A DNA stretch of 64,000 nt from Cytophagales bacterium (GTDB taxonomy: Bacteria > Bacteroidota > Bacteroidia > Cytophagales > 172606-1): contig JAUJMU010000003.1 of NCBI GenBank assembly GCA_030446715.1, forward strand, positions 248,001-312,000, given 5' to 3'. Numbering within the stretch: the first letter of the stretch is position 1; each line of letters opens with the position of its first letter. Both the position numbers and the translations under genes were made by a program. The notes below the pieces were generated by a model. That model was not told the origin of the DNA, made no database searches, and saw nothing but the letters and a program-made list of their open reading frames with translations. Of the stretch, positions 5,509 to 48,887 are shown piece after piece.

Positions 5509-5627
5509 AAAATTACAAATTATCAGTCTAAGTAATGGTTGGTTATATGGTTGTATAGCTATAGGGCTGAATTGTTTAACTGTTGAATTGTTAGAGGATG
5601 GGGAAATGACCGTTCTGCCTGACAACA

Positions 5628-5673
5628 ATTCAGCCATTCAGCCATTCAGCCATTCAGCCATTCAGCCATTCAA
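5628..5673. repeat. Tandem array, 8-base unit ATTCAGCC
   Basis: Five perfect copies of ATTCAGCC (5628-5667) are followed by a partial copy ATTCAA. The array is non-coding, 43 bases past the end of the LTXXQ-like gene on the minus strand. Array length is likely to vary between strains, which is inference. Confidence 0.9.
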
Positions 5674-9377: not shown

Positions 9378-9615
9378 AGGACTTGCTCAATAGAGGGTAT
9401 TGTTGCCTTGGTTCAGGCGTCCACGCCTGGATTAGCTGCCGCGGAGCCAGCTGAAGCGGTTATTTGTCAGAATCAGGATTTACAGGATGAGCAGGATGAA
9501 AGGATTTTAAGATCAGATCCTGTTTATCTTTTAATCCCGTAAATCCTGATGCTGACTTCTGATTCTGACCACCTGTCCCGGAGTCAACCAAAGCAGTATT
9601 TTGAAAAAGTCCTGT
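9378..9615. repeat. Repeat A copy, interrupted by repeat B
   Basis: The left part (AGGACTT at 9378, then GTTCAGGCGTCCACGCCTGG at 9411-9430) and the right part (CACCTGTCCCGGAGTCAACC to AAAGTCCTG, 9570-9614) align with the complete repeat A copy at 21248-21351. Between them sits repeat B (9467-9568). A second A-right-like segment (CTGCCGCGGAGCCAGCTGAA, 9437-9456) precedes B, so the right half is present on both sides of B. The inner CAGGCGTccACGCCTG is a hairpin. Confidence 0.7.
9467..9568. repeat. Repeat B copy (uninterrupted, inside repeat A)
   Basis: A 102-base segment bounded by a 10-base inverted repeat, TCAGAATCAG at 9467 and CTGATTCTGA ending at 9568. Its interior (AGGATTTTAAGATCAGATCC, TGTTTATCTTTTAATCCCGT, AAATCCTGATGCTGA) is matched by the copy split in two at 28088-28352, for which it serves as the empty-site reference. 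Confidence 0.7.
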
Positions 9616-21247: not shown

Positions 21248-21351
21248 TCAGGACTTTCTTAAAATCTGGCTATTGTTGTACTGGTTCAGGCGTCCACGCC
21301 TGGACCACCTGCCCCGGAGCCAGCCGGAGCGGTATTCTGAGAAAGTCCTGA
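21248..21351. repeat. Repeat A, complete copy with inverted ends (MITE-like)
   Basis: A 104-base unit bounded by TCAGGACTTTCTTAAAA (21248-21264) and TTCTGAGAAAGTCCTGA (21335-21351), which are inverted repeats with 15 of 17 positions equal. The centre holds the hairpin word GTTCAGGCGTCCACGCCTGG. No convincing target duplication flanks it. Confidence 0.7.
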
Positions 21352-21462
21352 TCTGTATTTGATTCTGCTTTAGTGATTACTTTATTGTGAGGGGCTTGTT
21401 TGCCTTCGGGATAATGGATCGCACAATAGCATTGAGCACACATCCGAAAAAAATATTTTAAT

Positions 21463-21524
21463 AATTCTCAATTCTCAATTCTCAATTCTCAATTCTCAAT
21501 TCTCAATTCTCAATTCTCAATTCT
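21463..21524. repeat. Tandem array, 7-base unit AATTCTC, ending 12 bases before a start codon
   Basis: Eight perfect AATTCTC units (21463-21518) and a partial AATTCT are followed by AATTTTCCACCT and the ATG at 21537. The array occupies the position where promoter spacing or the 5' leader of the oxidoreductase would lie. Confidence 0.92.
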
Positions 21525-21536
21525 AATTTTCCACCT

Positions 21537-28071: not shown

Positions 28072-28087
28072 CCAGCCTCACCCTCAA

Positions 28088-28352
28088 AAGGATTTCAGGA
28101 TCAGATCCTGTTTATTTTTTAAGGTTTCTGGAGAGATTCAGGGAATGACCGGTTGCAGGACCTCACCCTGAAACTATGTTCGCAAGCTCCAAACTCTCGT
28201 TTGGGCTTGTCTCTCTTGGGGAGAGGGACTTCAATAAGCGGGTTTTTCTCCCCCTCGCCTCAGGAGAGGGGGCCGGGGGGTGAGGTTTTATACCAGCCTT
28301 TCCCTACATGTCTCCAGGAACCTCTTTTAATCCCGTAAATCCTGATGCTGAG
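28088..28352. repeat. Repeat B copy split by an inserted 200-base element
   Basis: The left part (AAAGGATTTCAGGATCAGAT to TTTTTTAA, 28088-28122) and the right part (TCTTTTAATCCCGTAAATCC to TGATGCTGA, 28323-28351) join to give a sequence matching the intact copy at 9499-9555. The right part also encodes the last residues and stop of the DNA ligase read from the opposite strand. Confidence 0.75.
28123..28322. mobile_element. MITE-like 200-base element with inverted ends and 8-base target duplication
   Basis: The ends are GGTTTCTGGAGAGA (28123-28136) and TGTCTCCAGGAACC (28309-28322), inverted with 12 of 14 equal. It is flanked by TTTTTTAA (28115-28122) and TCTTTTAA (28323-28330), one mismatch apart; the intact repeat B reads TCTTTTAA once. 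The interior has no coding frame of note but holds GGACCTCACCCTG and its counterpart GGGGTGAGGTTTT, plus CTCTCTTGGGGAGAGG-like hairpins that also occur in the element at 48479-48877. The mobilising transposase is not in the window. Confidence 0.75.
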
Positions 28353-29949
28353 CGGAGACTGGTTTGATCAGGTTTAAAAATGCCCTCAGATCACTCAATG
28401 AATTGGCTTCGTCTGCGGGTTTATCATTCCGCCACCGCAGGAGCCGGGGAGACCGCACCGATAGCCCCGATTTGTGCCGGGCCGACAGTTCCACGCCGTT
28501 GAAAGCAATTTCAAACACCAAATGCGGCTTTACCGTACGCACCGGACCAAACTTTTCAAGGGTATTTTCCCGGATGAATTTTTCCAGCTCCGCAGTCTGT
28601 TCTGCATCCAGTCCGGCCTGAAGACGGGCAAACGGAACCAGTCTTTCCCCGTCCCATAAACCAAAAGTAAGGTCGGTGCAGGCGAACCGGCTTCCCGTTT
28701 GGGTCTGCTGCGCGTACATCAGCACCCCGTCGAGGGTATGCGGGTCAGACTTCCACTTCCACCAGTCTCCCCGGCGGCGGCCGGTCAGGTAAGGTGAATT
28801 TTTGCGCTTCAGCATAATTCCTTCGGCGCAGTTTTCGCGGGCCTGACCGTGCAGTACCTGCAATTCATTCCAGGTGGCAAACTCCAGCGAATCAGAAAGA
28901 AGAAGGTTTTCCTGCCTGAGGTTGTCCAGCAGTGTTTCCAGCTTTTCCCGCCGTTGCTGATAAGGATAGGTGCGGATGTCATCCCCATTGCTTTCAAGCA
29001 GGTCGAAGGCAACCAGAATGGCCGGACACTCTCTGAGTGATTTTGCTGAAACATTTTTGCGTGAAAACCGGGACTGCAGGGCACCGGCCGGCAGCGGACA
29101 ACCTTCAGAAAACCCGATGATTTCACCGTCGATCACCGTACCTTCCGGCAGCATACTTTGCAGGAGGGCAAGTTCCGGAAATTTAGGCGTGACCAGTTCT
29201 TCTCCCCGCGACCAGATGAACAATTCGCCTTCCCGCCTGACCAGTTGCGCCCGGATTCCGTCCCATTTCCATTCGGCCTGCCATTCGGTTGGCTCTCCCA
29301 GTTGGGCCAGATCGTCCTCAAGGGCATGCGCCAGACTAAACGGGTAAGGTTGGGAAACATCCCTTGCACAGCCGGTTCCGGCAAGCAAATCTTCCAGTGA
29401 ATGCTGGTCCGGATGCCAGTTTCCGGCCAGCCGGTGGGCCACTACAGATTTGCGGGCACTGGCCAGTTCGGCCACTGCTTCCGTGACCAACTTCCCGGGC
29501 ATCGGCGACCGGAAACTGCCGGCCAGTAATTTTATGATCAGCAGGCGTTCTTCCGGTTCCTGCTCATCCCAGGCAGCCTGGAGACTTTCCCGGCGCTGGA
29601 ACTCATTCAGTTCCTCCAGGGAGTGGAGAAAGGTCATCCACTGCGTCAGGCTTTTACGGGAAGGAAACCGGGCCGGCGGCAAGATCAGGGAAATGGTTTC
29701 GGCCAGTTCGCCCACCGCCTGCACGGATTCTTCAAACAGCCAGGCGGAAACATCGCTTGCCTGAAGGGCCCAGTTTTTCAGGGTGCCAACGGTAGTCACC
29801 CGGCGGGGAATGCGTCCCATCAGCAGAGAAATGCCCCACATCCGGTCGGTGGGACCGGCTTTGCAGGCGTAATCCCTGAAGAGTTCTTTTTTCCGGGCCG
29901 GATCGGCAGCGTTTTCAAGGGCGAGGCAAAGAAGGGCAAATGATTTCAT
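28327..29949 (-). CDS. ATP-dependent DNA ligase
   Basis: A 540-residue ligase that seals nicks using ATP. The helical DNA-binding N-domain spans 1-200 (SLLMGRIPRRVTTVGTLKNW). The adenylation domain starts about 225 with EWKWDGIRAQ, where the lysine near residue 229 takes AMP; further motifs are FIWSRGEELVTPKFPEL, TVIDGEIIGF, LVAFDLLESNG, CAEGIMLKRKNSPY and WWKWKSDPHTLDGVLMY. The C-terminal OB domain ends VELSARHKSGLSVRSPRLL. The form is that of bacterial ligases usually encoded beside a ligase-associated exonuclease and helicase, which are absent here; a DNA/RNA endonuclease lies upstream instead. The last seven residues and stop lie in repeat B. Confidence 0.93.
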   Translation of the reverse strand: MKSFALLCLALENAADPARKKELFRDYACKAGPTDRMWGISLLMGRIPRRVTTVGTLKNWALQASDVSAWLFEESVQAVGELAETISLILPPARFPSRKSLTQWMTFLHSLEELNEFQRRESLQAAWDEQEPEERLLIIKLLAGSFRSPMPGKLVTEAVAELASARKSVVAHRLAGNWHPDQHSLEDLLAGTGCARDVSQPYPFSLAHALEDDLAQLGEPTEWQAEWKWDGIRAQLVRREGELFIWSRGEELVTPKFPELALLQSMLPEGTVIDGEIIGFSEGCPLPAGALQSRFSRKNVSAKSLRECPAILVAFDLLESNGDDIRTYPYQQRREKLETLLDNLRQENLLLSDSLEFATWNELQVLHGQARENCAEGIMLKRKNSPYLTGRRRGDWWKWKSDPHTLDGVLMYAQQTQTGSRFACTDLTFGLWDGERLVPFARLQAGLDAEQTAELEKFIRENTLEKFGPVRTVKPHLVFEIAFNGVELSARHKSGLSVRSPRLLRWRNDKPADEANSLSDLRAFLNLIKPVSAQHQDLRD

Positions 29950-48469: not shown

Positions 48470-48887
48470 GCGTCAGATCATACTACGGTACATGTACCAG
48501 TTTCTGCCTCTTCAGGGACCTCACCCCCAACCCCTCCCCATGGGAGCTACGATTATGACACAAAATGGAAAGGGAACCGGGCAGGAATTTAAAATGGGCT
48601 TAAATTCTTGATTCTGGCCTTTTCAGAACCTCACCCCCAACCCCTCTCCTCGGGAGAGGGGAGCCACAAACGCATGCCTATCAGCAAGTTGCAAAATGTG
48701 TCCTGATCGTAGCTCCTTGGGAAAGGGGAGTCACAACGATCTGATTTACAGTTGGTCAGAAAAATGTTCTGATCATAGCTCCCGGGGAAAGGGGAGAAAA
48801 ACGCCGCTGTGGCTCCCCCTCTCCCAGGGAGAGGGGGCCGGGGGGGTGAGGTCCCTTGCCGGAATGTACCGTAGTATAGCGTCAGAT
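48469..48887. mobile_element. MITE-like 399-base element with 14-base inverted ends and 10-base duplication
   Basis: The element (48479-48877) is bounded by ATACTACGGTACAT (48480-48493) and its exact complement ATGTACCGTAGTAT (48864-48877). AGCGTCAGAT directly flanks both sides (48469-48478 and 48878-48887), a 10-base direct repeat, as expected from target duplication. The interior has no gene but holds several C-rich and G-rich hairpin units (ACCTCACCCCCAACCCCTCC, CTCGGGAGAGGGGAGCC, CCCTCTCCCAGGGAGAGGGG) and GGGTGAGGT at the right. The left copy touches the stop codon of the exonuclease gene. Confidence 0.85.

Follow-up and report, generated by a model that had tools for sequence, protein, structure and literature searches.

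Beside the 3' end of a DNA ligase gene in the genome G000, a copy of a dispersed repeat (repeat B) is split by 200 bases. Is this truly an element within an element, as the original prediction held from the letters of the DNA, and if so, what kind of element was inserted and what does it carry? The window analyzed is a stretch of 64,000 nucleotides (C4:248001-312000) of this genome, which is a draft of 6.43 Mb in 25 contigs.

The inserted unit measures exactly 200 bp and has sharp ends (Table 1). Its first 14 bases and its inverted last 14 (GGTTTCTGGAGAGA / GGTTCCTGGAGACA) are equal at 12 of 14 positions, as had been claimed, and the two flanking octamers form an 8-bp target duplication. The intact repeat B of the window provides an empty site within the genome, and about 12 further full copies lie elsewhere in it, none interrupted at the split point. 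The matching ends, the 8-bp duplication and the uninterrupted repeat-B copies bear out an element within an element. The split of repeat B is likewise real, but the copy proved to be left-truncated as well; its first ~36 bases are absent, and in the alignment CCTCACCCT stands in their place. The stop codon of the ligase reading frame does lie inside the right-hand duplicate. Ligase orthologues of three relatives end without the SAQHQDLRD tail, and repeat B is absent at their 3' ends, so that they offer no orthologous empty site for the unit. An Rfam search at the unit found no RNA family.

Two other kinds of repeat were seen in the window. Another dispersed repeat is present at 9395-9479 and 21268-21352 (78% identical) and abuts repeat B at its first copy, and short tandem arrays (21449-21536 and 5610-5673) consist of AATTCTC-type and CCATTCAG units.

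Table 1. Positions in the window of the features at the split repeat B and of the 400-bp element
Feature	Position	Strand	Basis
Intact repeat B	9463..9561	+	Alignment
Orphan CCTCACCC where the repeat-B remnant is truncated on the left	28076..28083	+	Alignment
Left remnant of repeat B	28087..28122	+	92% match to positions 37-72 of intact repeat B
Left 8-bp target-site duplicate TTTTTTAA	28115..28122	+	Flank comparison, alignment
200-bp non-autonomous ISL3-type element (MITE)	28123..28322	+	Ends shared by at least 14 elements genome-wide, 8-bp duplications
Left terminal inverted repeat GGTTTCTGGAGAGATTCAGGGAA	28123..28145	+	Matches both decayed ISL3 elements and the sister-species ISL3 element
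Passenger palindrome CCTCACCC...GGGTGAGG	28161..28285	.	Also in the second MITE family, without either end set, and flanking DUF559 genes
Right terminal inverted repeat GGTTCCTGGAGACATGTAGGGAA, minus-strand reading	28300..28322	-	End pairing, alignment
Right 8-bp target-site duplicate TCTTTTAA, contains the ligase stop codon	28323..28330	+	Alignment, ORF
Right remnant of repeat B	28323..28351	+	100% identity to 9527-9555
DNA ligase ORF, tail SAQHQDLRD* within or bordering the repeat-B remnant	28327..29949	-	ORF
Left 9-bp target-site duplicate GCGTCAGAT	48470..48478	+	Flank comparison, alignment
400-bp MITE of the second family, ends CATACTACGGTACATG/AATGTACCGTAGTATA, same passenger palindromes	48479..48878	+	17 elements, 9 with perfect 9-bp duplication
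Right 9-bp target-site duplicate GCGTCAGAT	48879..48887	+	Flank comparison, alignment

Other copies of the unit were expected to have sharp ends at the same terminal sequence, and two full-length relatives, C3:15779-15976 (90% identical) and C3:22155-22348 (75%), have identical terminal bases. A terminal-sequence search of the genome with inspection of end pairs gave at least 14 elements. Twelve are short (38-257 bp) and have no transposase gene; the other two measure ~1.28 kb. Left and right flanks of the 14 elements were compared at each length from 2 to 15 bp, and their mean identity is 0.68 at 8 bp as against 0.17-0.38 at other lengths. The predicted 8-bp duplication is perfect at three of these elements and has at most one mismatch at seven. 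The two longer elements (C4:597194-598470 and C10:317579-318864) contain an interrupted transposase gene whose product matches DDE_Tnp_ISL3 (PF01610) and Zn_ribbon_ISL3, and in a sister species a related ISL3 transposase is bounded by GGTTCTTGGAGACATTTAGGGAA. Terminal inverted repeats are thus common to the unit and the ISL3 element. Because the two ~1.28-kb elements with a broken ISL3 transposase have the same ends, the 200-bp unit is classified as an ISL3-type miniature, non-autonomous transposon.

The unit resembles ISL3-family insertion sequences and the MITEs derived from them in sharing its ends with an ISL3 DDE transposase and zinc ribbon, in its 8-bp duplications and in the existence of short non-autonomous copies. 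It differs from such MITEs in that its interior is a passenger palindrome and not a deleted transposase gene, and in that end-only micro-elements down to 38 bp are present here; the smallest (C7:129138-129175, L066) consists of two inverted ends alone, with a perfect 8-bp duplication. At another locus (L073, C14:112207-112684) four ISL3-type end sequences occur in 480 bp, which suggests nested or composite MITEs.

An ISL3-family DDE transposase would have recognized in trans the GGTTYCTGGAGA...AGGGAA inverted ends of the unit, which would then have inserted in AT-rich sequence within repeat B, an older palindromic repeat beside the DNA ligase gene, duplicating 8 bp. Mobilization in trans is something we only infer, because no intact ISL3 copy with the unit's ends was found in the draft genome, where the transposase copies found are broken. 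Could repeat-B copies instead vary through recombination between palindromes, with no insertion at all? The split copy is indeed left-truncated too and stands beside an orphan CCTCACCC, but the matching ends, the ISL3 partner and the 8-bp duplications constant across the family already contradict this explanation, and we find it scarcely credible.

The interior of the unit was said to share the CCTCACCC...GGGTGAGG design with a 399-base element at 48479-48877. The shared design was confirmed, but the element is one base longer, 400 bp. Elements ending in TATACTACGGTACATT form at least 17 pairs in the genome, and the 9-bp duplication is perfect in 9 of 17 and has at most one mismatch in 12 of 17, no other length being prominent. 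A single family comprising the 200-bp and 400-bp elements was considered and is ruled out by their different terminal repeats and by duplications of 8 versus 9 bp. The only link between them is a third, independent palindromic element. No autonomous partner of the second family was found among the ~1-kb regions around single ends. This family also has a micro-element made of ends only (C18:886596-886623, L317; 28 bp, perfect 9-bp duplication), and since end-only micro-elements with perfect duplications exist in both MITE families, the passenger is unnecessary for the mobility of the ends. Two members are unusual. One (L297, C4:548336-548450) has a CACAAAGTCACCAAG-type palindrome in place of CCTCACCC in its interior, and the other (L015, C13:288944 region) has no right end, and the direct repeat at its flanks, TTTATGAAGGCTATATACTTTCTCC, is ~26 bp long rather than 9 bp.

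What, then, is the passenger? The CCTCACCC...GGGTGAGG palindrome is present in most members of both MITE families, and copies with neither set of MITE ends also exist in the genome. Its arms are laid out as inverted hairpins, CCTCACCCCCGGCCCCTCTCC-loop-GGAGAGGGGAG ... CTCCCCTCTCC-loop-GGAGAGGGGCCGGGGGTGAGG, with a hairpin sequence that shows ~90% conservation across genomes from other families of the order. The passenger was probably acquired by the MITEs as they formed or later. It would have come out of a second, unrelated element family whose autonomous form probably carries a ~110-residue DUF559 nuclease (Vsr/EDxHD-like fold) between such arms and often lies in frame in host genes.

The association with DUF559 was surveyed in a scan of public genomes that yielded 80 named DUF559 loci, mostly from Bacteroidota, with some from Chloroflexi, Ignavibacteria and others. 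Arms were sought within 250 bp on both sides, and 788 shifted intervals within the same loci served as controls. Inverted arms stand on both sides in 47 of 79 named loci as against 7 of the 788 controls (Fisher 1e-48). Since some of the DUF559 query sequences came from arm-flanked copies, the arm frequency, though not the contrast with the controls, may be overestimated. Exact CCTCACCC upstream together with GGGTGAGG downstream was found at 26 of 80 loci, and CCCTCTCC-type words on both sides at 37 of 80; neither pattern occurs in any of the 788 controls. In a set of relatives collected by Pfam model, arms are present at DUF559 in 14 of 30 cases (controls, 1 of 114). At about 40% of the named loci no inverted arm is clear, and many DUF559 genes are free-standing.

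The DUF559 profile matches an endonuclease-like protein (PDB 3hrl, 1.8e-32) and, weakly but significantly, a structure annotated as 'Mobile intron protein' (PDB 3r3p, 9.8e-5). The ExDGxxH motif is intact, by a strict pattern, in 96 of 105 DUF559 domains. DUF559 is endonuclease-like, and the literature searched gives the family no established biological role.

DUF559 domains were found repeatedly inside long reading frames in relatives, and 35 of the 80 loci have an open frame of at least 150 codons on both sides. The LeuRS gene of G000 (C10, minus strand; L150 1377-4928), an ORF of 1183 aa, has a palindrome-flanked DUF559 in frame in its editing region and, further along, a second palindrome insertion without the nuclease, before YPYELSTMPGWAGSSWY. 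Two insertion sites emerged when LeuRS sequences of relatives were aligned. Neither is occupied in most relatives; an occupied one holds a short peptide coded by the palindrome or else the DUF559 form, and such repeated use of two sites is compatible with site-specific cleavage of the empty allele. In the seven hosts checked with NCBIfam (LeuRS, IleRS, RecG, MetH, MutS, AroC and a RecB-like helicase) each protein has a DUF559 match, and PurL, ValRS and other hosts were recognized from sequence by eye only. The DUF559 tree, which is weakly resolved, requires more than one entry into LeuRS, PurL and MetH but does not discriminate between site-by-site homing and free transposition.

Inteins typically lie in frame within essential genes, as DUF559 does here, and the fold is similar to that of a mobile-intron endonuclease (3r3p). 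Both would fit an intein or intron endonuclease that is removed from the host genes by splicing. However, NCBIfam recognized only the host family and DUF559 in the seven hosts, with no intein domain, Rfam found no intron inside any insert, and the palindrome-only inserts in LeuRS, of ~25 codons, are too short for a splicing domain. Splicing is therefore a very improbable account of these insertions. EDxHD/Vsr-like homing endonucleases (I-Bth0305I, PDB 3r3p) are similar in having a related nuclease fold by profile and in their location in conserved essential genes, but here DUF559 has no surrounding intron or intein, hairpin arms flank it, and gene-less copies exist. Rickettsia palindromic elements (RPE) are palindromes translated in frame inside proteins. 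The likeness to RPE lies in this in-frame translation; the present family differs in having a nuclease-coding full-length form, and the sequences are presumably unrelated.

If the arms belong with the nuclease, the arms of a given DUF559 gene should recur gene-less in its own genome and be missing from genomes that lack the gene. The arm found in G050, CCCCTCCTC-NNNN-GAGGAGGGGYTAGGGGTGGTTG, occurs 16 times in G050 and 20 times in G035; nine further genomes, of which five belong to the same genus, have no match, and reversed-pattern controls also gave none. The pairing of arms and DUF559 in G035 was not known in advance. Each of the two genomes (L339-L358) has one ~500-bp copy with DUF559 exactly between full-length arms and several doublets of 112-124 bp without the gene.

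REPIN/RAYT systems are REP palindromes associated with a Y1 transposase (PMC8266576, PMC3733652). The present elements are like them in being dispersed, genome-specific doublets of inverted hairpins that match a full-length, gene-carrying copy, and the ~85-bp spacing of the two hairpins in the dispersed doublets could be taken to mean that a Y1 tyrosine transposase moves them as REP doublets and that DUF559 is a bystander. We think this quite improbable; the gene between the arms is DUF559 (Vsr/EDxHD-type), which in two genomes lies exactly between full-length arms, and no Y1 transposase was found in the arm-bounded intervals. Unlike in REPIN/RAYT, moreover, many full-length copies are in frame inside host genes.

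It may still be asked whether the unit is an ordinary ISL3-type MITE only, its CCTCACCC palindromes being passively captured GC-rich sequence (terminators or replication products) near which DUF559 genes merely insert. Unrelated interiors are common in MITEs, and the CACAAAGTCACCAAG-type palindrome in one second-family member is in keeping with passive capture. Yet the arms at DUF559 are symmetric far beyond the controls, one arm family is genome-specific and matches the DUF559 flanks of those very genomes, and the LeuRS sites occur in a palindrome-only as well as a DUF559-filled state, so that passive capture appears unlikely. In our reading, the passenger belongs to a nuclease-encoding, REPIN-like element, of which it represents the non-autonomous form.

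According to the most likely model, a cut by the nuclease at or near the target would allow copying of the arms into the site, either together with the gene or alone, and the host protein would accommodate in-frame copies in permissive loops. Cleavage and mobilization by the DUF559 protein may drive the spread of the palindromes.

Taken together, a 200-bp ISL3-type MITE inserted in repeat B, with a passenger from the DUF559-nuclease palindrome family, is the best explanation of the locus, and we consider it probable. We also favor, with less assurance, a wider proposal, namely that DUF559 between inverted hairpin arms constitutes a widespread and apparently undescribed bacterial mobile element with gene-less doublets as non-autonomous forms, which enters essential genes in frame, is tolerated there unspliced, and appears without its gene as the CCTCACCC...GGGTGAGG palindrome of the MITEs in the window. 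The limited literature searched gave nothing relevant on DUF559 with palindromes, in-frame insertion or the encoded peptide.

There is nothing unusual in the unit as a MITE; what would be a surprise, if confirmed, is the nuclease-palindrome element that it appears to carry. The passenger ties the GC-rich CCTCACCC palindromes of Bacteroidota genomes to DUF559, two things usually treated as unrelated. If the link is true, DUF559 would gain a role, and there would be a REPIN-like system that has a nuclease in place of the Y1 transposase. LeuRS, IleRS, RecG and MutS would then carry an unspliced selfish nuclease domain, and translated repeats in database proteins (LTPGPSPxERG and similar) would be mobile-element sequence, which is a warning to those who use them.
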